Source: Magnetococcales bacterium (GTDB taxonomy: Bacteria; Pseudomonadota; Magnetococcia; Magnetococcales; Magnetaquicoccaceae). Taken from it: a stretch of 64,000 nucleotides of DNA. The notes beneath the pieces were generated by a model. It was not told the DNA's origin, did no database searches, and was given only the letters and a program-made list of their open reading frames with translations. The position numbers were made by a program, and so were the translations under genes. Shown here in pieces: positions 11,121-25,500 of this stretch. Location: NCBI GenBank assembly GCA_015231915.1, contig JADGAR010000003.1, positions 1 to 64,000 of the forward strand, in the 5' to 3' direction. Within the stretch, counting starts at the first letter, position 1; each line of letters opens with the position of its first letter.

Positions 11121-11753
11121 ATGCCACAATCCACCACCGTCGATGATGTCTGGGAGATGATCCGGGAAACCACCCGCCAGATTCAGGAAGTTTCCAGGCA
11201 GATGCAGGAAACGGATCGCAAGATGCAGGAAACGGATCGCAGAATGCAGGAAACGGATCGCAAGATGCAGGAAACGGATCGTCAGATGCAGGAAACGGAT
11301 CGCAGGATGCGGGAGACCGACCGCAAACTGGATCGGCTTGGCGGTCGTCTGGGCGAATTTGTCGAGGGACTGGTGGCCCCGGCCTGCAAGACCCTGTTCG
11401 TGCAATGGGGGATCCCGGTGCATCAGGTCAGTCGGCGTGTGGAGGCCGATCTGCCGGGCGGTCGTCACATCGAAATCGACCTGTTCGTAGTCAACACCGA
11501 CGCGGTCGCCCTGGTGGAGGTCAAGAGCAAGCTCACGATTGACGACGTTCGGGAGCATCTGGAGCGTTTGGTTGTATTCAAGGAGTTTTTCCCCAGATAC
11601 GCCGATTGTCGTGTATTTGGTGCGGTCGCCGCCATGGTGATCGAGGAGAATGTCAGCCGTTTCGCCATCAGCCAGGGTTTGTTCGTGATCGAACAGGCCG
11701 GTGACACGCTACGCATGGCCAATACTGCGGACTTCACGCCGCGCAGTTGGTGA
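11121..11753 (+). CDS. Coiled-coil protein with PD-(D/E)XK nuclease-like domain
   Basis: A 210-residue protein. Residues 20-75 form a coiled coil of seven-residue units reading QMQETDR, KMQETDR and variants, encoded by six tandem 21-base DNA units. The C-terminal half resembles the PD-(D/E)XK nuclease fold: IEIDLFVVN provides the Asp, and LVEVKSKL provides the E-x-K about 18 residues later. Proteins of this shape are common in cyanobacteria and proteobacteria as uncharacterised coiled-coil nucleases. ATG 11121 follows GGGAGAA; the long open frame upstream is a shadow of the epimerase gene. No known defence partner is adjacent. Confidence 0.75.
   Translation: MPQSTTVDDVWEMIRETTRQIQEVSRQMQETDRKMQETDRRMQETDRKMQETDRQMQETDRRMRETDRKLDRLGGRLGEFVEGLVAPACKTLFVQWGIPVHQVSRRVEADLPGGRHIEIDLFVVNTDAVALVEVKSKLTIDDVREHLERLVVFKEFFPRYADCRVFGAVAAMVIEENVSRFAISQGLFVIEQAGDTLRMANTADFTPRSW
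11199..11324 (+). repeat. Six tandem 21-bp units encoding a heptad coiled coil
   Basis: Six in-frame units of 21 bases beginning at 11199, 11220, 11241, 11262, 11283 and 11304. The first five are nearly identical around ATGCAGGAAACGGATCG; the sixth has drifted. Each adds one heptad to the coiled coil, so slippage would change its length without a frameshift. Confidence 0.9.
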
Positions 11754-12448: not shown

Positions 12449-14323
12449 ATGATACCAGGCCACTCCACCCTCGCCCCCCTCCTCTCCCCCCGCGCCATGG
12501 TGATCGTGGGGGCCTCCCGACAAACGGAAAAATTCGGCCATGTCTTGCTCGCCAATTTTCTTTCCGGCAGCTTCGCGGGCAAACGATACCTCCTCCATCC
12601 CAGCGGTGAGGAGATTCTGGGGCAACCCGCGCTGACGAACTGGAACGCCCTCCCGCGCGGCGTGGATCTGGCGCTGCTCGCCGTCCCCGCCCCCCTGGTG
12701 GTGGAACAGGCCAGGCAGGCCGCCTTGCGCGGCTGCTCCGCCCTGGTGGTGATCAGCAATGGCTTTGCCGAGGACGACGAGGCCGGAAAACAACGCAAAA
12801 CCGCCCTGGTCAGGCTCTGCAAGGAGCGAGGCATGCTGCTGCTGGGACCTGCCTCCCCAGGCGTGATCCATCGCCAGGCGGGCATCAATGCCTCCCTGGC
12901 CCCGGTGCTCCCCCCGGAGGGAGGCATCTCTCTGCTGGCCGGCTCCGGCGAACTGTGCATCGCCACCCTGGCATGGATGGCCTCCCGCAACCTGGGACTC
13001 GCCAAAATGATCGGCCCAGGCAACGGAGCCGGTCTCAGCGACGCCCAGTGCCTCGCTTGGCTCGCCCACGACCCCGACACCAGGGTCATCGCCTGCCAAT
13101 TGCAGCGGCTCGGTGCCGGCCTGCTCAAGGCCGCCAGCGAGGCAGCGCAACTCAAACCCGTGGTGCTGCTGCCTCCGGATACAGGTTACGACCCGCAGGT
13201 GATCAACGCCGCCTGCGACCGCATGGGCGTCCTGCGCGCCCACGGGATCCAGGAGTGGTGGGATCTCCTGCTCGCCTGCGCCCGCAACACCACCCTGCCC
13301 GCCGGCAACCGGGTGATGATTCTGACCGACCACGACACCCTGGGACGGCATACCGCCGTCACCCTGGAACGACACGGCCTGACGGCAACCGACGAGACCC
13401 CAGGCGATGCCCTGCTGACGCTCGTGGCGCCCCCCAGGCACGACCTCGCCGAGACCGTCCGACCGGAACTCCCCCATCTGATGGTCCTGCCCGGAGCCGA
13501 GGAGCACGACGCGCACATGCAAGCTGCGGATCGCGCCGGAATCGCCGCCTATCCCACCCCGGAACGGGCCGCCGCCGTCCTGGCCAGCCTGGAAACGTTC
13601 ATACGCCAACGGCAACGTCCGGCCCGGGTCATCACGCCCCTGCCCGTCAATCCCACCCGGGCCGCTCGCCTCCTGCAACGCCATCCCCGTCAGGCCGAAC
13701 CGCACCCGCTGAGCGATGCGGAAGCCAAACCGATCCTCCAGGCCTACGGCCTGGCCGTTCCCGAAGGCGAAATCACCTCCAGCGAAGAAGGGGCGCTGGA
13801 AATCGCCGAACGGTTGGGCTACCCGGTCTCCCTGCACCTTCTCACCCCGGATGGACACCTGGTCCACGGCATGCCATTGCGTCACGACCGCCTGGCCGAT
13901 CCCCAGGCGGTGCGGGACGCCTTCGACCTGCTCACCCTGCGTTTCATGCGCCTGCTGCCGACAGGCCGGGTGGAAGGGGTGTTCGTGGAACAGGCCTGCG
14001 GCCAGGGCCGCCCCGTCCGGGTGACCATGCGCCGTGACCCTGCCCTCGGTCCCCTGCTGACCTTGGAAAACGGCGCCTGTCAACTCGCCCCGGTCACCGA
14101 GGAAGAGGCCATGGCCATGGCCCGCGCCGGCACCCCCGCCTCCGCGCGGGAAAACGATACCCGTGACCTGGCGGAAATCCTGCAACGTTTGGGACAACTG
14201 GCCGGCGACTTCCCGGAGATCGAACGGATCGAAATCGATCCGCTGGTCATCCGCCGGGCCGGTCAATCCCCGGTGGTGGCCACATGCGCCATTCTCCTGA
14301 ATGCCGGAGGCAAACCCCCATGA
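12449..14323 (+). CDS. NDP-forming acyl-CoA synthetase-like protein lacking catalytic residues
   Basis: A 624-residue protein with the layout of ADP-forming acyl-CoA synthetases: CoA-binding domain (LLSPRAMVIVGASRQ), two succinyl-CoA ligase-like domains, and an ATP-grasp domain (LSDAEAKPILQAYGLAVPEG). Key elements are missing. Active members have GRS...SHTGAL with the phosphorylated His after the KPVV strand; here KPVVLLPPDTGYD runs straight on. The ATP-grasp Lys and the HKTD block (usual form VLKxxSPDIxHKTD) are also changed (SLHLLTPDGHLVHG). It is probably a binding or regulatory pseudoenzyme, as in the large domain of Pat/YfiQ acetyltransferases. Its stop overlaps the next start by ATGA. 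Confidence 0.8.
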   Translation: MIPGHSTLAPLLSPRAMVIVGASRQTEKFGHVLLANFLSGSFAGKRYLLHPSGEEILGQPALTNWNALPRGVDLALLAVPAPLVVEQARQAALRGCSALVVISNGFAEDDEAGKQRKTALVRLCKERGMLLLGPASPGVIHRQAGINASLAPVLPPEGGISLLAGSGELCIATLAWMASRNLGLAKMIGPGNGAGLSDAQCLAWLAHDPDTRVIACQLQRLGAGLLKAASEAAQLKPVVLLPPDTGYDPQVINAACDRMGVLRAHGIQEWWDLLLACARNTTLPAGNRVMILTDHDTLGRHTAVTLERHGLTATDETPGDALLTLVAPPRHDLAETVRPELPHLMVLPGAEEHDAHMQAADRAGIAAYPTPERAAAVLASLETFIRQRQRPARVITPLPVNPTRAARLLQRHPRQAEPHPLSDAEAKPILQAYGLAVPEGEITSSEEGALEIAERLGYPVSLHLLTPDGHLVHGMPLRHDRLADPQAVRDAFDLLTLRFMRLLPTGRVEGVFVEQACGQGRPVRVTMRRDPALGPLLTLENGACQLAPVTEEEAMAMARAGTPASARENDTRDLAEILQRLGQLAGDFPEIERIEIDPLVIRRAGQSPVVATCAILLNAGGKPP

Positions 14324-16170
14324 CCCTCCCCCTCGGCACGCCGGATCCCGACTGGCAGACCCGCCATGCCAGCGCCATCGTCACCCCCGAGGTGGCGGTG
14401 CGCCGCATCAAGCCCGGACAGCGCATCTTTCTGGCCACCGGCGCCGGGGTGCCCAGCGCCCTGGTGCGTGCCTTGATCGAACAACGCTCCAGACTGGCGG
14501 ACATCGAGATCGTCACCCTGTTCGTGGCGGGTGAGGCCCCGTTCTGCACCAAGGAACTGGCCGAAATCTTCACCCTCAATACCTTTTTTATCGCCGACAA
14601 CGTGCGCGAGATGGTCCGCCAGGGCATGGCCGACCATACCCCCATTCACCTTGCCGACATCCCGCGCCTCTTCGGCAGCGGGCGCATGCCCCTGAATGTG
14701 GCCCTGATCTCCGCCTCCCCGCCCGATGCCGACGGCCATGTCAACCTGGGGATCGCCGTGGATGTGGTGCGTGCCGCCATCGAAAGCGCCCAACTGGTCA
14801 TTGCCCAGATCAATCCCCACATGCCCGTCACCCACGGGGACACCTCTCTGGCCGTCTGGGACATCGATCTGCTGGTCCCGGCAGCCACCCCCTTGCCGGA
14901 ACTCATTGCAGCCGAACCGGAAGAGACCCTGACACGCATCGGTCGCAACGTCGCCGCCCTGGTCCCCGACGGGGCCACCATCCAGATGGGCATCGGTCGG
15001 GTGGCCCAATCGATGATCCGCTTTCTGACCGGCAAGAAAAACCTCGCCGTGCATGGCGAGATGATCTCCGACACCATCCTGGCGCCCCTGGCTTCCGGAG
15101 CGCTCACCGGCCCGGTGGTCACCAGCTTCGCCCTGGGCAGTCGCAAACTGTACGACACGGTCCACGCCAATCCCCTTTTTTCCTTCCGGCGCACGGAGCA
15201 CGTCAACGACCCGCGCGTCCTGGCCCGGCTGCCGCGTTTGATGGCGATCAACAGCGCCCTGCAGATCGACCTGACCGGGCAGGTATGCGTGGACTCGCTG
15301 GGGGTGCGGCTCTATTCCGGACTGGGGGGGATTGCCGCCTTCAATGCTGGCGCGGCGGCCTGCGCCCAGGGCCGGGCGATCATCGCCATGCCCGCCACCG
15401 CACGCGGCGGCAAGGTGTCGCGCATCGTCGCCCGCCTCGCCCCCGGAGCCGGCGTGGCCCTGGATCGCGGCATGGTCCACTATGTGGTCAGCGAGTTCGG
15501 CATGGCCTATCTGTTCGGCAAGACCATCCAGGAACGGGCATTGGCCCTGATCGGCATCGCGCACCCCGACTTCCGCGCGGCCTTGATCAAACGGGCGGTC
15601 AAGTGGGGCTATGTGCGTCCGGAAGTCGGCGACGTGGATGGCCGCATCTGGGTGGGAGGACGGGAACTGCGTACCTCCATGTTGCTGGAGAGCGGGCGCA
15701 TGCTTCAGTTCCGCTCCTCCCGGCCCACGGATTGGCAGGCGGTGCGGGCGATGCTCTACTCCCTCTCCGAGGGGACGGTCTACCGGCGCTACATGAGCCA
15801 TGTCAAGCGGTTTCCCTTCAACCGCCTGAAAAACTTCACCTTCATCGATCAGCGCCGGGACGTGGTGGTGGTGGGAACCGTCATGGGCGGCAACCAGGAG
15901 GAGGTGGTGGCCATCGGCGGCTACAACGTGGACGATGCCACCAATCTGGCCGAGGTCGCCTTTCTGGTGCGGGACGACTGGCAGGGACAAGGGATCGGCA
16001 CCTTCATGATGCGCCATCTGGCCTACGTGGCCCGCAACGCCGGGGTGGCCGGTCTGACCGCCGAAACCCTCATGGAGAACCTCTCCATGCAGGCCGTTCT
16101 GAAAAAAAGCGACTTTCCCGTGCAGACCAGCAGCGACGGCGAGATCGTCCACTTCGAAATCCGCTTCTGA
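14320..16170 (+). CDS. Acetyl-CoA hydrolase/CoA-transferase fused to a GNAT acetyltransferase
   Basis: A 616-residue fusion. Residues 1-430 are a CoA-transferase of the 4-hydroxybutyrate CoA-transferase/acetyl-CoA hydrolase family, with catalytic-type Glu247 in AVHGEMISD and a C-terminal domain starting near LRLYSGLGG-like text (here VRLYSGLGGIAAF). Residues 460-616 are a GNAT domain with the acetyl-CoA loop VRDDWQGQGIG (550-560). That GNAT closely resembles the acetyltransferase end of Pat proteins (LSEGTVYRRYMSHV, then AEVAFLVRDDWQG). CCGGAGGC precedes the ATG, which overlaps the preceding stop. With that ligase-like neighbour it may form a split protein-acetylation system. Confidence 0.85.
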   Translation: MTLPLGTPDPDWQTRHASAIVTPEVAVRRIKPGQRIFLATGAGVPSALVRALIEQRSRLADIEIVTLFVAGEAPFCTKELAEIFTLNTFFIADNVREMVRQGMADHTPIHLADIPRLFGSGRMPLNVALISASPPDADGHVNLGIAVDVVRAAIESAQLVIAQINPHMPVTHGDTSLAVWDIDLLVPAATPLPELIAAEPEETLTRIGRNVAALVPDGATIQMGIGRVAQSMIRFLTGKKNLAVHGEMISDTILAPLASGALTGPVVTSFALGSRKLYDTVHANPLFSFRRTEHVNDPRVLARLPRLMAINSALQIDLTGQVCVDSLGVRLYSGLGGIAAFNAGAAACAQGRAIIAMPATARGGKVSRIVARLAPGAGVALDRGMVHYVVSEFGMAYLFGKTIQERALALIGIAHPDFRAALIKRAVKWGYVRPEVGDVDGRIWVGGRELRTSMLLESGRMLQFRSSRPTDWQAVRAMLYSLSEGTVYRRYMSHVKRFPFNRLKNFTFIDQRRDVVVVGTVMGGNQEEVVAIGGYNVDDATNLAEVAFLVRDDWQGQGIGTFMMRHLAYVARNAGVAGLTAETLMENLSMQAVLKKSDFPVQTSSDGEIVHFEIRF

Positions 16171-18443: not shown

Positions 18444-18512
18444 AAGTTGCAAGACGGTTGTGGCATTTTTCGTGGTTTGTTCGATGATACACGCCGGATC
18501 GACCCCGCGCAA
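18444..18512 (-). repeat. 69-bp direct repeat, copy A (orphaned 3' end of tatD)
   Basis: Sixty-nine bases matching 20486-20554 at all but six positions, in the same orientation. Read on the minus strand it encodes a TatD C-terminus (TTKNATTVLQL), then continues as PKGIP and stops within the tcdA start codon. It marks one boundary of the restriction-modification cassette and looks like the original tatD end. Confidence 0.9.
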
Positions 18513-18581: not shown

Positions 18582-18613
18582 CATTGTGTCAGCGGGTCAT
18601 ATACGACACAATG
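18582..18613. promoter_or_regulatory. 9-bp inverted repeat upstream of the endonuclease gene
   Basis: CATTGTGTC (18582-18590) and GACACAATG (18605-18613) are perfect inverted copies separated by 14 bases, about 90 bases before the endonuclease ATG. It could be an operator or a transcript hairpin controlling the endonuclease; no controller gene is present in the cassette. Confidence 0.45.
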
Positions 18614-18700
18614 TACCTTCATGGGAGGAACGAATTCGGCCTGTTACAGAGCAAGGCATGCACACCGGACCAGCCATCTCTTTCTTTTGAGTATGCAATA

Positions 18701-19603
18701 ATGACCAACGATAGCGATATCCCACCTGGACAACCGCTTGCAGAAGTCTTTGGATTCCCTGTTAATAATTATTCTCCAGAGGCAGAGAGGCACCGCCATG
18801 CCAAGCTTTGCCCGTTCAATAACAAGGTTCCAAATTGCACAAAAGACAAAGCCATTGACCCTTTGGGCGTTTGTTCCATTTTTGACGCTCCAGGCGAGGC
18901 CACGATTATTTGTCCTGTGCGATTTCGTGAAAAATGGATCATTGCCGAGGATGCTGCGGCATTCTTCTTTCCAAACAATGCTTCGTGGACGTCATTAACA
19001 GAAATTCGCCTTAAAGACGGTAATGGCCTGTCGGCGGGCAATATCGACCTGGTTCTTGTTTCTTATGATGATCGCGGGAGACTTGTTGATTTTGGCTCTT
19101 TGGAAGTACAGGCCGTGTACATTTCCGGCAATGTGCGAAATCCGTTCAATCATTACATGAGCAATATTAAAGATCACGCTTTGCAGCCGTGGAAAGGAAT
19201 TAATTACCCACGATCTGATTATCTTTCATCGTCACGCAAGAGACTTGCACCCCAACTACTTTACAAAGGAGGCATATTCCAGAACTGGAAGAAGAAACAA
19301 GCTGTGGCGCTGCACAAATCTTTCTATGCTACCTTGCCTGCACTACCAGAAGTAAATCCATCCGAAGCGGATATCGCATGGTTCCTCTATAGTTTAGAGT
19401 ATGATTATAAAACTAATAATTTCAATCTGACACGGTATAAAACAATTTACACAGCATTTGAACCTGCCTTGCTCAAAATCACAACCGCCCCAGCCGGACC
19501 TATTGAGGAATTTATCGCGCATCTTCAAGACAGGCTGGATGATCGCCTTACGCCGCCTGATGCCCCGACGTTACAGGATATTCTGGGCGGGAGAAACCAG
19601 TAA
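18701..19603 (+). CDS. NotI-family type II restriction endonuclease
   Basis: A 300-residue protein resembling the rare-cutter NotI. The N-terminal region contains PLAEVFGFPVNN and four cysteines (37, 46, 58, 71) placed like the structural iron-binding cysteines known in NotI. The catalytic core is a PD-(D/E)XK variant: Asp116 in NIDLVLV and Glu135-x-Gln137 in SLEVQAVY, matching the E-x-Q arrangement of NotI rather than E-x-K. ATG 18701 is preferred over longer in-frame extensions that overlap the inverted repeat. Its 3' end overlaps the methyltransferase gene by 56 bases. The target site is unknown; AT-rich codon use suggests recent transfer. Confidence 0.8.
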   Translation: MTNDSDIPPGQPLAEVFGFPVNNYSPEAERHRHAKLCPFNNKVPNCTKDKAIDPLGVCSIFDAPGEATIICPVRFREKWIIAEDAAAFFFPNNASWTSLTEIRLKDGNGLSAGNIDLVLVSYDDRGRLVDFGSLEVQAVYISGNVRNPFNHYMSNIKDHALQPWKGINYPRSDYLSSSRKRLAPQLLYKGGIFQNWKKKQAVALHKSFYATLPALPEVNPSEADIAWFLYSLEYDYKTNNFNLTRYKTIYTAFEPALLKITTAPAGPIEEFIAHLQDRLDDRLTPPDAPTLQDILGGRNQ

Positions 19604-20465
19604 AGATCAACAATTCAAACATTTTCGCGTGATGGGTGTTTTTCATGGGAACACGCTCAATATGAAACCCGCGCTGTTTTGCCATGTCGCACACAGATTC
19701 ATTATCATCATAAGTCATCATAAAATCACCTTCCGCCATCTTGCATAAAGAAAACAGATTATCATGGTCAATTTCTGAATAACTGTACAATCTTCGTCCT
19801 GCACGCTTCCCCGGAGCAGTATACGGAGGATCAATAAAGTATACAACATCTCCACGGCAGAGTGTTTCATTCAAATGGATCATCCCATCTCCTTCAATGA
19901 AGGTAATACGCTCCCGAAGCGTAAACAGCCTTCGAATACGCTTTGCCAAAGTATCGGCATACCATCGGGACGCAATACCCTTACCGTTTTCTCCATGCTT
20001 CAGAACACCACTGCCGGGAGCCAGAATCCCCCCGTGATTCGTCCGGTTCCTCAAGATGGTTTGAAAAGCATGATCCCTAACGGATTCCGCCGTAAGCGCC
20101 AGCGTGGCCTGTACATTGTCAATTGTCAGTTCAAAGTCCAGTATCATCTCGGCCAACCACTCAGCATCGTTGCTAAAAATCGTGTGCCATACGGCGGCAA
20201 CGTCCGGATCAAGTTCGATCATAGTGACATGATCGGCCAACTGCTCATTCGCGACAGTTAGACTAACAATCCCTCCCCCTGCAAAAGGCTCAATTAATTC
20301 TGATGGTCTGGTTTTTTTACTGGAAAGCCATTTACGGATTTCCGGAACAAGCCATGTTTTTCCACCGGGATAACGGAAAGGGCTTAACTGTGGAACCGAT
20401 GCAACATTGACGATGCGCCTATTGTAAGGCGGCTGATCCTCTTCAAATAATGATAATTGTTTCAT
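19548..20465 (-). CDS. D12-class N6-adenine DNA methyltransferase
   Basis: A 305-residue Dam-like methyltransferase that would protect the host from the adjacent endonuclease. Motifs run in the D12/alpha order: SPFRYPGGK (motif X, 28-36), IEPFAGGG (motif I, 58-65) and IDPPY (motif IV, 211-215), the DPPY form typical of adenine-N6 enzymes. The region between motifs I and IV probably contacts the target. Its ATG lies five bases after the tatD stop on the same strand, so it can be transcribed from the host operon, whereas the endonuclease is on the opposite strand. It overlaps the endonuclease 3' end. Confidence 0.92.
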   Translation of the reverse strand: MKQLSLFEEDQPPYNRRIVNVASVPQLSPFRYPGGKTWLVPEIRKWLSSKKTRPSELIEPFAGGGIVSLTVANEQLADHVTMIELDPDVAAVWHTIFSNDAEWLAEMILDFELTIDNVQATLALTAESVRDHAFQTILRNRTNHGGILAPGSGVLKHGENGKGIASRWYADTLAKRIRRLFTLRERITFIEGDGMIHLNETLCRGDVVYFIDPPYTAPGKRAGRRLYSYSEIDHDNLFSLCKMAEGDFMMTYDDNESVCDMAKQRGFHIERVPMKNTHHAKMFELLIFTGFSRPEYPVTSGHQAA

Positions 20466-20470
20466 GTTCG

Positions 20471-21235
20471 TTAGGCGGGTCGGATAAGTTGCAAGACAGT
20501 TGTGGCATTTTGTGTGGTTTGTTCGATGATACACCCCGGCTCCACCCCGCGCAAGCCGGCCAGGGTCGCGACCACCATGGCCAGATGGGCCGGTTCGTTG
20601 CGTTCTCCGGTGTGACCGGCGGGCGGGAGGTCCGGGGCATCGGTCTCCAGGACCAGGGCGTGGTCCGGCAAGGCGGCGGCCACCCGCCGGACCCGTTGGG
20701 CACGGTCATGGGTGACCACCCCGCCGAAGCCGAGGCGAAACCCCAGATCGAGATAGGCATGGGCCTGTTGCAGACTGCCGTTGAAGGCGTGGACGATGCC
20801 CCCGCACGTGAAGGCATGTTTTCTCAACTGGGAGCAGACCGTGTCGTGCGCCCCCCGGACATGCAGCAGGAGCGGCAGTTTGTGACGTTTGGCCAACAGC
20901 AGTTGATCGATGAAGAGGATCTGTTGTGCGGCATGGCTTTCGGGGGGGACCTTGTGATCCAGCCCCATTTCGCCGATGGCCACCGGTCGGCATCGGGCCA
21001 GCCACCCTTCCAGGCGGCTCACGGCATCGGCGGGATGGTCGGGCAGATACCAGGGGTGCAGTCCCAGGGCGATGGGGAATTGCGGGCTGGCCATGGCCGC
21101 CACCTTGGCGAAACCGGCCACTCGGATGGCCGGAATGACGCATTGCCGCACCCCGACCCGCCGCGCCCTTTCCCACACCGCGTCCCGGTCATGATCGAAC
21201 ACGGGGAGGTCCAGATGGCAGTGGGTATCGATCAT
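20471..21235 (-). CDS. tatD: TatD-family metal-dependent hydrolase
   Basis: A 254-residue TIM-barrel hydrolase of the TatD DNase/RNase family. Metal ligands are recognisable: IDTHCHLD (2-9), AIGEMGLDH, LLHVRGAHD, IVHAFNG and LETDAPDLPP. GGAGG lies just before ATG 21235, one base after the SEL1 gene stop. The last residues read VLQLIRPA, whereas the orphaned copy next to tcdA reads VLQLPKGIP, so cassette insertion replaced its final codons. It belongs to a minus-strand operon running from the GGDEF-EAL gene to pcm. Family members act in DNA repair or quality control; the exact role is uncertain. Confidence 0.93.
   Translation of the reverse strand: MIDTHCHLDLPVFDHDRDAVWERARRVGVRQCVIPAIRVAGFAKVAAMASPQFPIALGLHPWYLPDHPADAVSRLEGWLARCRPVAIGEMGLDHKVPPESHAAQQILFIDQLLLAKRHKLPLLLHVRGAHDTVCSQLRKHAFTCGGIVHAFNGSLQQAHAYLDLGFRLGFGGVVTHDRAQRVRRVAAALPDHALVLETDAPDLPPAGHTGERNEPAHLAMVVATLAGLRGVEPGCIIEQTTQNATTVLQLIRPA
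20486..20554 (-). repeat. 69-bp direct repeat, copy B (3' end of intact tatD)
   Basis: Second copy of the repeat at 18444-18512, with six mismatches. It encodes the C-terminal TTQNATTVLQL of the intact TatD and then diverges into LIRPA and a TAA, five bases before the methyltransferase start. It marks the other boundary of the cassette. Confidence 0.9.
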
Positions 21236-21236
21236 C

Positions 21237-21749
21237 TCAATCCTCCGCGCCGGGGTGCGGGATGCGCTTTTTGGCCTGACGCAGGTCGTCGGGATCGAGT
21301 TGGTCCTCCAGTTGGCGAATCCGCTCCCGCAAGGGGCGCAGAAATTCATCCGGGATGCCAGGCAGGGCGCGGCTCAACCAGAGGTAGGCCCGCAGCGGAT
21401 CCCGGTCCAACTCCTTGCCGTCGGCATGGAGCATGCCCAACGCATGGGCGGATCTGGGGTCGCCCTGGAGCGCGGCCTTGCGGAACCAGGCGGCGGCTTG
21501 CGCGGGATCCTTCTCCATGCCGATCCCTTGCAGGCACATGACGCCCAGATTGTGCTGGGCGTGCGGGTCGCCCTGGAGCGCGGCCCTTTCGAACCATGCG
21601 GCGGCGGCGACCGGATCCCGTTCCACGCCCAACCCCTTGAGAAGCATCCCCCCGAGGTTGTGTTGCGCCTTGGGGTTGCCCCCCTCGGCCAAGGCGCGCA
21701 GCAGGGCGAGATAGCGTTGCGGATCGATATCGTCAGTTGGGGGCAGCAT
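21237..21749 (-). CDS. SEL1-repeat protein
   Basis: A 170-residue protein made of TPR-like SEL1 repeats of 36 residues: AQHNLGGMLLKGLGVERDP, then AQHNLGVMCLQGIGMEKDP, then a third, weaker copy (AHALGMLHADGKELDRDP), followed by a charged C-terminal helix. No signal peptide is present, so it is probably a cytoplasmic scaffold for protein contacts. It overlaps the 3' end of the SpoU methyltransferase gene by 17 bases and ends one base before tatD, so it is part of the same operon. The binding partner is unknown. Confidence 0.85.
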   Translation of the reverse strand: MLPPTDDIDPQRYLALLRALAEGGNPKAQHNLGGMLLKGLGVERDPVAAAAWFERAALQGDPHAQHNLGVMCLQGIGMEKDPAQAAAWFRKAALQGDPRSAHALGMLHADGKELDRDPLRAYLWLSRALPGIPDEFLRPLRERIRQLEDQLDPDDLRQAKKRIPHPGAED

Positions 21750-22560
21750 CGCGGATCCTCATGAACTCGTACAAAAACAGGGTGGCGGCCATGGCCACGT
21801 TCAGGGAATCCATGCCATTGGCCATGGGCAGGACCAGTCGGTCGTCGCACAGGGGGAGCAGCGCGGGATCGAGGCCATCGTACTCGTTGCCGAGCAGCAG
21901 GAGGTAGCGGTGTTCGCCAGAGGCGGGAGGCACGAAGCGCTGCAGCGGTTGGGCTTCGGCATCGAGCACCGCCGCCGCGATGCGAAAGCCGACCTGCTTT
22001 AAGCGGGTCAACTCCCGGACAAAATCGGTGGTGCGGACCATGGGCAGGACAAACACCGCGCCCATGGAGGCCCGCACCGCCTGATGGTGGAACGGGTCGG
22101 CGCACTCCGGGCCAAGGATCGCCCCGTTCGCGCCGAGGGCCGCTGCCGAGCGCAACACCGCGCCCACGTTGCCGGGCATGGTCAAACGCGGCAAGGCCAG
22201 CAACAGCGTCGGGCCATACGGGGCCTGCCACGCCTCCGGCACGAACGGGCGGCGTGCCCGGGCGTAGACGCCGTTTTTATACCCTCTGCCTGCCACCTCG
22301 GGCAGCAACGAATCGGGGATGACGTAGACCGGGACCTCGTCCGGCACCCCGGCGGGAATCCTTGCCAGCCGGCGACTGGTCACCATCAGTGAGTCCACCT
22401 CGAAGCGGCTGGCCAGCAGCCGTTCCACGAGGGTGATCCCCTCGCACAGAAAAAAATGGCTGTCCACCTCCCTGCCCTCGCCGCGCAGGGCATGATAGGG
22501 ACGGATGCGCGGGTCGTCCGGCTGCTCGATCCCGATACGGCGCACGGCGCCATCAGGCAT
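21733..22560 (-). CDS. SpoU/TrmH-family RNA 2'-O-ribose methyltransferase
   Basis: A 275-residue member of the knotted SPOUT family that methylates ribose in tRNA or rRNA using S-adenosylmethionine. Motif 1 is PGNVGAVLRSAAALGA, motif 2 is LLLLGNEYDGL, and motif 3 is LPMANGMDSLNVAMAATLFL. An N-terminal substrate-binding-like segment (SHFFLCEGITLVERLL) is present. It overlaps the GGDEF-EAL gene by eight bases and the SEL1 gene by 17, indicating one transcript. The target RNA cannot be told from sequence. Confidence 0.9.
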   Translation of the reverse strand: MPDGAVRRIGIEQPDDPRIRPYHALRGEGREVDSHFFLCEGITLVERLLASRFEVDSLMVTSRRLARIPAGVPDEVPVYVIPDSLLPEVAGRGYKNGVYARARRPFVPEAWQAPYGPTLLLALPRLTMPGNVGAVLRSAAALGANGAILGPECADPFHHQAVRASMGAVFVLPMVRTTDFVRELTRLKQVGFRIAAAVLDAEAQPLQRFVPPASGEHRYLLLLGNEYDGLDPALLPLCDDRLVLPMANGMDSLNVAMAATLFLYEFMRIRDAAPN

Positions 22561-25500
22561 GGCCCTGCTCCTGGACGAACCTGGCGAACGCCTCCCCCGG
22601 CATCGGTTTGGCCAGGAAAAAGCCCTGAATCAAATCGCAGCCGTTTTCGCGCAAAAAGTCGAGCTGATGGGCATTTTCCACCCCCTCGGCCACCACCTTC
22701 AGGTGCAGCGCCCTGGCCAGGCCGATGATCGCCAAAACGATGGAGGCGTCGCTGGAATCGGCGCGCAACTCCCGCACGAAGGACTGATCGATCTTGAGGG
22801 TGTTGACGGGAAATTTTTTCAGATAATTCAATGACGAATAACCAGTGCCGAAGTCGTCCATCGCCAGGCTGATCCCCAACTCCCGCAGCCGCTTCATGAT
22901 GGCCACCGACTCCTCCACGTTGCCCATCAACATGCTTTCGGTGATTTCCAACTCCAGACAGGCGGGTGGCAGGCCGGTCTGTTCCAGCACGCTTCGCACC
23001 ATTCCGATCAGGTTGGGTTGCTGGAACTGCCGGGCCGACAGATTGACCGCCACCTGCAAGGGGCACTGGTCGCCTTGACGCCATTCCAGGGATTGACGGC
23101 AGGAGCGCTCCAGGATCCACTCGCCGATGGGCAGGATCAGACCCGTCTCCTCGGCCAGGGGGATGAATTTGGCGGGCGAAACCAGCCCCTGACCCGGCTT
23201 CTGCCAGCGCACCAGCGACTCCATCCCCACCACGCGCCGGGTTTGGGCGTCGAACTTGGGCTGATAGTGCAGCAACAACTCCTGGTTTTCCAGCGCCTTG
23301 CCCAGATCGCTCTCCATGGAGATCCGTTCCAGGATGCGGGTTTGCAACTCCTTGGCGAAGAACTGAAAATTGTTGCGCCCCCGCTCCTTGGCCAGGTACA
23401 TGGCCATGTCCGCGTGTTTGGTGAGGGTCTCGAAGTCCTCCCCGTCATCGGGATAGAGCGCGATGCCGATGCTCCCGCCGATGCTGACCTCCTGATTGTG
23501 GATCGTCATGGGGAGTTGCAGGGATTCGATCATCTTGCGGGCAATGGGCGAGACCTGTTCCGCACGGGTCAGGTCGGTCAGGATGACGGTGAACTCGTCC
23601 CCGCCCAGACGGGCGATGGTATCGTTGCGGCGCACCTGGGCCAGCAGGCGGTCGGCCACGATCCGCAACAGTTCGTCGCCAGCGGCATGCCCCATGGTGT
23701 CGTTGACGAACTTGAAACGGTCCAGGTCGATGAAAAAGAGCGCCACGCCGCTTTGATGTCGCGCGGCAATTTCGATGGAGTGCTCCAGCCGCTCCCGGAA
23801 CAGGACCCGGTTGGGCAGGTTGGTCAGGGGATCGTAATAGGCCAGTTTTTCCAGCTTCTCTTCGGCTTCCTTCTGCTGGCTGATGTCCGAGAACAGCCCG
23901 ACATAGTGGAGCACCTGCCCGGTACCGTCCTTGAGGGCACTGATGGAAAGCCATTTGGGGAAGACTTCGCCGTTCTTGCGTCGGTCCCAGATCTCCCCGG
24001 ACCAGTTTCCCTGCTCGGCCAGGTCGCTCCACATCTTGCGATAGAACGCCTCGTCGTGACGACCCGACTTGGTGACATTGGACGGACGACCGATCACCTC
24101 ATCGACGCTCCACCCGGTGACCTGCTCGAAGGCGCGGTTGACGAAGGTGAAGCGACCGCGCGCGTCGGTGATGACGATGGCCTCGCTGGTATTTTCGATC
24201 ACCTTGTGCGCCAAAAGCAAACGCGCCTGATCCTGCTTGCGTCGGGTGATGTCCACCCCGACGCCCAGAAAGCCGTTGATGGCCCCATCCGGATCCCGCA
24301 TTGCGGTGACGGTCAAAGAGACCGGAAAACAGGTGCCATCCTTGCGGATATAGCTCCACTCGTGTTCGTCCGGAAGTCCCCGTCTCGCCTTGGCCACGAA
24401 CACCTCGAAACCGGGGGGGACCTGCTCGCCGAATTCCTGGCTGAGAAGTGCGGCGCGTCGTTCCACCTCGGCGGCATCGTGCAGGATGGCGGGGGTTTGC
24501 AGGCCGATCAGTTCCTCGGGGGCATAACCGAGTTGTTGCACTGCCGCATTATTGAAAGATTGGATCCGGCCATCGACATCGGTGGAGATGATGGTGGAGT
24601 GGGCGCTGTCGAGAATGGCCCGCTGCAGGGAGGCGGTGGCGGTCAGGGCGCGTTGGGTGCGTTCCAGGTCCAGGGTGCGTTGCCGCACCAGGTTGTTGGT
24701 ATGGATGTCGCGGCTTACGGTCAACAGGAGAAAGCCTTCCAGGAGGGCGGTCAGAAACAGTCCGCCCACCAGGGTGATCCAGGCGGACCAGGCGGAACCG
24801 GTGGGATTCAGGCGGAAAGAGAGCCGCCAGAGGCGATCCGCCACCCGGATTTCCTGAACGAACGCCTGGCCCTTGGCCTGGGAGAATTCGGGGGTGCGAA
24901 ACAGGAGATTATCCTCCGGGGTCGTATCGATCACCTGGATTTCGAAGGCCAGGGGGTTTTCCTTCCAGCGTGCCAGGGTGGCCGCGACCAGATCCTCGAT
25001 GCGAATCCCACCCAACGCGAAGCCGAGCAGGTCGGTGCGCCGTTCCTCCAGGGTGGTTGGGGGGGTGACGGAACGGTAGTAGGGGGCGAGCAACAGGATG
25101 CCGATCTTTTGCACCTTGTCCTGCACCAGAGTGACCCGCGCGGTGGCGCTGGCCTGACCCGAATCGCGGGCGGCCTCGATGGCGGCAAGACGGGCGGGGT
25201 TGGAGCCGAGATCGAACCCCACAGCCTGATTATTGCCTGGCAGCGGTTCCACCAGGGTCACCGGATAGTAAAACGCACGGGAGGCGGCGTCGATCCAGGC
25301 ACCGGAGGAGTTGCGTTCGGTAATGCGAAAATCGGGATACCAAAGACGGGCGCGCGCCTCCAGGCGAGGTCGTTCCTCGGCGGACAGGCGCGGGATCCAT
25401 TCCACGGCGGCGATGCCGGGATAGCGTTCCAGGATGCGGCGGGTGAAATCCCGGAATCGTTCCGCGTCCACATCCGGGGTCAGGCGCAGAAATCCGGCCA

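Follow-up and report, generated by a model that had tools for sequence, protein, structure and literature searches.

Two genes read from the forward strand occupy positions 12449-16170 of the window, that is, the whole 64-kb stretch of DNA analyzed, which is part of the 107-kb contig C67 of a Magnetococcales draft genome (4.02 Mb, 133 contigs; G000 below). The first ORF matched the Pfam families CoA_binding_2, Succ_CoA_lig and ATP-grasp_5, and the second matched AcetylCoA_hydro, AcetylCoA_hyd_C and Acetyltransf_1 (Table 1). An earlier note on this DNA had described a dead-ligase gene overlapping a GNAT-carrying gene, and both ORFs were recovered where it had placed them. The gene for the CoA-transferase-GNAT fusion probably starts at the ATG at 14320: its relatives begin at the same position, and the overlap is therefore the four-base ATGA. 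Most Magnetococcales relatives having both genes together show the same overlap in the same frame, and an ATGA overlap was also found in roughly one in four of 56 pairs from GTDB. Since the frames are open, the gene order is conserved and dN/dS is below 1 (see below), chance ORFs are excluded. The closest relative (G001) and Magnetococcales bacterium WMHbin3 (L092) have fusions that share 94% identity with the one in the window.

Table 1. Features of the gene pair, in positions of the window.
Feature	Position	Strand	Basis
Acyl-CoA synthetase (NDP-forming)-like protein, predicted pseudoenzyme, 624 aa	12449..14323	+	Pfam, AF2 model, fold match
CoA-binding Rossmann domain, best preserved part	12494..12871	+	Pfam, column counts
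Deletion site of the phospho-histidine (SHTG) loop	13184..13187	+	Alignment of pair ligases
ATP-grasp domain; HKSD replaced at 13844-13888; GLGG segment deleted at about 14060-14080	13703..14263	+	Pfam, alignment
CoA-transferase-GNAT fusion protein, 616 aa	14320..16170	+	Start ATG 14320; alternative upstream ATG 14284
ATGA stop/start overlap of both genes	14320..14323	+	Sequence
4-hydroxybutyrate-type CoA-transferase domain	14407..15597	+	41% to 2oas, TM 0.93
CoA-transferase catalytic Glu codon, E247	15058..15060	+	Invariant in 30 members
Pat-like GNAT domain	15685..16113	+	NCBIfam NF058543 8e-21; PDB search
GNAT beta-4 Glu, E545, presumed position of the Pat catalytic Glu	15952..15954	+	Invariant in 30 members

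The ligase-like protein has the domain set and the fold of ADP-forming acyl-CoA synthetases (ACD, 4HB-CoA synthetase), from which it differs in lacking the phospho-histidine loop (SHTG) and HKSD; the best fold matches of its AF2 model (pLDDT 86.8) were PatZ, at the top, and 4HB-CoA synthetase. Alignment with 50 pair ligases from other phyla showed that the SHTG loop, HKSD and the GLGG part of ATP-grasp are all absent. The SHTGAL histidine is missing because the entire loop has been deleted; the CDRMG sequence at 13214 was considered as a remnant of SHTGAL and rejected, as the alignment pairs it with the later xRxGV motif. The description of a dead ligase with no SHTGAL histidine and a changed ATP-grasp motif was therefore confirmed: the alignment shows these catalytic residues to be absent, and by motif the window ligase is catalytically dead. 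Of 25 near-invariant columns in the Rossmann domain, 16 are kept in the window ligase and 19-20 in the other members of its family f1; these f1 relatives keep 51-52 of 90 such columns in ATP-grasp.

The same genome carries a second pseudo-ligase gene (L052; C42, 3104-4741), an N-terminally truncated paralogue of the window ligase without the CoA-binding domain, with a dN/dS of 0.51. Such a gene stands near acs in G000 and also in G001. In G000 about 2.6 kb separate it from acs, the intervening gene encodes a hybrid histidine kinase, and an AcrB-type transporter gene follows the pseudo-ligase.

The fusion protein shares with the 4-hydroxybutyrate CoA-transferases (AbfT family) the fold and the catalytic glutamate, and is distinguished from them by its C-terminal GNAT domain and by altered active-site loops: the proline of GxGxxP is lost, GGQVDF reads GGIAAF and eight residues are deleted, leaving neither GxGxxP nor GGQxDF intact. 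The AF2 model (pLDDT 81.5) matched the 4HB CoA-transferase fold, with a poorly modeled GNAT loop at residues 480-512. Glu247 (numbered from the ATG at 14320; E259 from that at 14284) had been reported as intact; it is indeed present and, like Glu545, invariant in an alignment of 30 members. In G021 the Glu position is occupied by Asp. In the GNAT domain E545, Q555 and G560 are invariant in this alignment, corresponding to the conserved Glu and the acetyl-CoA loop of Pat-type GNATs; we take the position of E545 to be that of the catalytic Glu in Pat. The top NCBIfam GNAT match for the fusion was Pat, and the best eight matches in a PDB search were PatZ, SlPat and mycobacterial Pat (E 7e-12 to 7e-9), all of them protein acetyltransferases, the first unrelated-type GNAT appearing only at E 1e-3.

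A second CoA-transferase-GNAT paralogue (L053; C45, 103124-104863) is 38% identical and has an intact GGQVDF loop. No plasmid-borne copy was found when matches had to span 80% of the fusion. No description of a CoA-transferase-GNAT acetyltransferase was found in the open-access literature, nor in two AcuB papers of 2026.

Scanning GTDB yielded at least 80 loci, a lower bound, at 57 of which the ligase and fusion genes are adjacent on one strand. Among the matches listed, pairs occur in Desulfobulbales, Myxococcota, Actinomycetota, Hydrogenedentota, Planctomycetota, Lentisphaerota, Fibrobacterota, Nitrospinota, Delongbacteria and Magnetococcales; read from this distribution, the pair is evidently an ancient two-gene module of about ten phyla. 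In several Magnetococcales, and in other bacteria too, the fusion occurs with no ligase partner, and the ligase is therefore not essential to it. Pair ligases of other phyla keep SHTG and HKSD with few exceptions (L099 and L096, for example, are altered). Within Magnetococcales, the ligases of G018, G021, G024 and G025 keep HTG and have lost HKSD, those of family f1 have lost both motifs, and those of the window and G001 additionally have the loop deletion. It follows from this stepwise loss that the dead ligase is a pseudoenzyme specific to the lineage, which resembles Pat by convergence.

The genes surrounding the pair were compared among relatives. The gene for AMP-forming acetyl-CoA synthetase, acs, is a neighbor of the pair genes at locus L101 and in several families of Magnetococcales: in G011, G014, G015 and G026 it is divergent from ligase-CoAT-GNAT, in G025 it is next to the ligase, and in G013 and G030 it is next to the fusion. 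In G024 the apparent order is acs-actP-ligase-fusion, on a contig with only the C-terminal end of acs. In L149, L153 and L155 acs lies within about 1.7 kb of the fusion. Apart from the partial acs of G024, the Acs proteins encoded at these loci carry the acetylatable PKTRSGK lysine motif. The probability of this linkage by chance was about 5e-16 in a crude independence model that ignores kinship and is indicative only. In Magnetococcales, DUF485 and SSF genes come after acs, the same gene set as in acs-yjcH-actP of E. coli.

Among the GTDB matches listed, an HDAC-type gene flanks 21 of 57 pairs and a gene for a CBS protein is near 19, both being present at 17. Solved AcuB structures match the CBS protein along its entire length (residues 2-208), and HDAC-flanked pairs mostly have this AcuB-like gene in between, giving the order acuC-acuB-ligase-CoAT-GNAT; Desulfobulbales show the succession HDAC, CBS protein, ligase, fusion. 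An HDAC gene is also found 3' of the pair in L136 and L115, and after the fusion at six loci of the second fusion clade (L083, L164, L167-L170), the named ones being gammaproteobacterial. In the clade of L053, the gene following the fusion encodes an HDAC in Alteromonas, Idiomarina, Colwellia and Alkalimonas. The flanks were also examined for a conserved metabolic pathway, an idea that was rejected: the scanned flanking genes were mostly unrelated to one another, and just HDAC, CBS and acs recur. Locus L101 has acs, HDAC, ligase and CoA-transferase-GNAT genes all together, which makes it a good candidate for experiments.

The window pair itself shows no linkage to acs or to a deacetylase gene in this genome; acs (C42), HDAC (C45) and Sir2 (C100) genes are present and unlinked to it. 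The search for a deacetylase that the earlier note had proposed thus turned up both a Sir2 and an HDAC gene. In B. subtilis, acsA is divergent from acuABC, an arrangement reported for Firmicutes (PMC13121692). Relatives of the window pair resemble the Bacillus acuABC/acsA system in having acs near acetyltransferase, AcuB-like CBS and HDAC-type genes (PMC13121692, PMC13039410); they differ in that AcuA is a lone GNAT, here replaced by a ligase and a CoA-transferase-GNAT. The window copy itself is unlinked.

On these sequence data we consider it fairly likely that the pair is a lysine acetyltransferase module restraining Acs, with the ligase-like and CoA-transferase parts sensing acyl-CoA. It would do for Acs what Pat or AcuA does elsewhere, and is probably an undescribed design of the acetylation switch that turns Acs on and off. 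The Pat-like GNAT would move acetyl from acetyl-CoA onto the active-site lysine of Acs, and a Zn-dependent HDAC-type or Sir2 enzyme would take the mark off again. We infer that the two proteins form a complex, in which the fused CoA-transferase domain and the translationally coupled ligase-like partner would act as binders of CoA esters that adjust the GNAT to the acyl-CoA supply. The ligase appears to be catalytically intact in most phyla; the pseudoenzyme of Magnetococcales may have been retained for binding, in convergence with Pat and its dead synthetase domain. The earlier suggestion that the pair senses or supplies acyl-CoA and acetylates proteins thus survives in part: sensing and acetylation fit the strong gene context, but supply by the window ligase does not stand, its catalytic residues being gone. 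Acyl-CoA could be supplied by intact ligases elsewhere or by the CoA-transferase domain. A bolder reading, which we offer as a possibility somewhat short of even, is a new class of protein-lysine acetyltransferase in about ten phyla, a hetero-oligomer of CoA-transferase-GNAT and acyl-CoA synthetase: the synthetase could make the acetyl donor beside the GNAT, the CoA-transferase could read or exchange acyl groups, and in Magnetococcales the synthetase would have been reduced, step by step, to sensing alone, in a replay of how Pat evolved.

The pair had originally been read as a possible split Pat, that is, as a Pat gene divided in two in the window lineage. The likeness to Type I Pat/PatZ (YfiQ), the class I-alpha lysine acetyltransferases, is evident in a synthetase fold without the catalytic histidine, for which PatZ is the closest fold match, adjoining a Pat-type GNAT. 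However, in the ligase tree the pair ligases, including those of Magnetococcales, form one clade (99/100), a family of free-standing ligases, and the synthetase domains of classic Pat proteins, E. coli PatZ among them, form a separate one (99/97), in which L087 has a very long branch. The GNAT phylogeny against Pat that the earlier note had called for gave a similar picture: CoA-transferase-GNAT and Pat are separated (100/100) from seven further GNATs encoded in the genome, in agreement with a Pat-like GNAT, yet the classic Pat GNATs form their own clade (100/100) with the window GNAT outside; outgroups in this tree were long-branched and included no characterized small-molecule GNAT. Moreover, CoA-transferase-GNAT is itself an old and widespread protein, and elsewhere the catalytic motifs are still present in most of the pair ligases. 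Fission of a Pat gene is therefore rejected within the sequences sampled, and we regard it as hardly credible; trees, profile and PDB searches together point to an independent two-gene module with a Pat-like GNAT. Relative to the single-chain Type I/II Pat, the module consists of two genes with an ATGA overlap and a GNAT fused to a CoA-transferase, its ligase and GNAT each fall outside the Pat clades (supports 99-100), and the window ligase has, relative to Type I, lost HKSD too. Classic one-chain Pat and the fusion occur together in one genome (G037) against 8.9 expected (p 2e-6; 61 genomes), an indicative value that ignores kinship. Several classic Pat-like proteins of relatives (L086, L087, L088, L090) keep (S/T)HTGAL/M and HKSD/HKSE, so that not all Pat-type synthetase domains look dead.

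A mainly metabolic role, in which CoA-transferase and ADP-forming synthetase interconvert acyl-CoA and acetate and the GNAT is a minor self-regulating appendage acetylating these enzymes and not Acs, would suit the invariant CoA-transferase Glu, the SHTG and HKSD motifs kept in pair ligases outside Magnetococcales, and the acs and actP neighbors, which equally fit an acetate metabolism cluster. We judge it improbable, since the HDAC and AcuB-like neighbors are regulatory and not catabolic, the Magnetococcales pair is under purifying selection even after the ligase lost its motifs, and the GNAT Glu is invariant; family members with intact motifs could nevertheless be plain acyl-CoA enzymes. Action of the GNAT on a small molecule, with an acetylpolyamine amidohydrolase as the HDAC-type neighbor, appears very improbable: polyamine deacetylases do occur among HDAC-fold enzymes, and an NCBIfam search gave no name to the neighboring HDACs, but the affinity of the GNAT in the PDB search is to protein acetyltransferases, and the AcuB-like partner and acs linkage also argue against it. 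Acetylation of Acs as the preferred reading of the fusion is compatible with a further alternative that concerns the window lineage only, so that the confidences attached to the readings do not sum to one: the ligase there may be a decaying relic, with CoA-transferase-GNAT working alone. Between G000 and G001, dN/dS was 0.117 (0.08-0.16) for the fusion and 0.336 (0.25-0.44) for the ligase, against 0.07-0.11 for ligases of other f1 pairs, which also miss the motifs. These values indicate a pseudoenzyme well maintained in f1 and relaxed in the window lineage, where faster evolution and greater loss of the fold, through several deletions, suggest that it may be decaying; the second, truncated copy, evolving faster still, points the same way. 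We nonetheless hold a relic to be rather unlikely, as the frame is open and alignable with two gap columns in 624 codons at a dS of 0.28, the upper confidence limit of dN/dS is 0.44, the AF2 fold is confident and the gene overlap is retained.

The published scheme of bacterial lysine acetyltransferases (types I-V) is without a ligase plus CoA-transferase-GNAT arrangement (PMC6456759), and the module would add this architecture to it and carry acu-type control of acetate activation beyond Firmicutes. The ligases provide living intermediates on the way from enzyme to regulator (intact, without HKSD, without either motif, and with the loop deleted), which bear on the origin of the dead synthetase domain of Pat. 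All parts of the module are small enough for expression and assay.

Other features were observed in the window and the genome. At 11331-11750 the N-terminal part of a predicted protein, with no Pfam match, contains heptad-like repeats of the type RKMQETDRRMQETD. A NotI-type restriction enzyme gene adjoins a D12-class methyltransferase gene at 18584-20534, flanked by a 69-nt direct repeat (91%) at 18444-18512 and 20486-20554, which suggests an inserted restriction-modification island. On contig C45 (20864-22934), an HDAC-family gene (22062-22934) is clustered with an HDAC fragment (20864-21049) and a lone GNAT (21221-21436).
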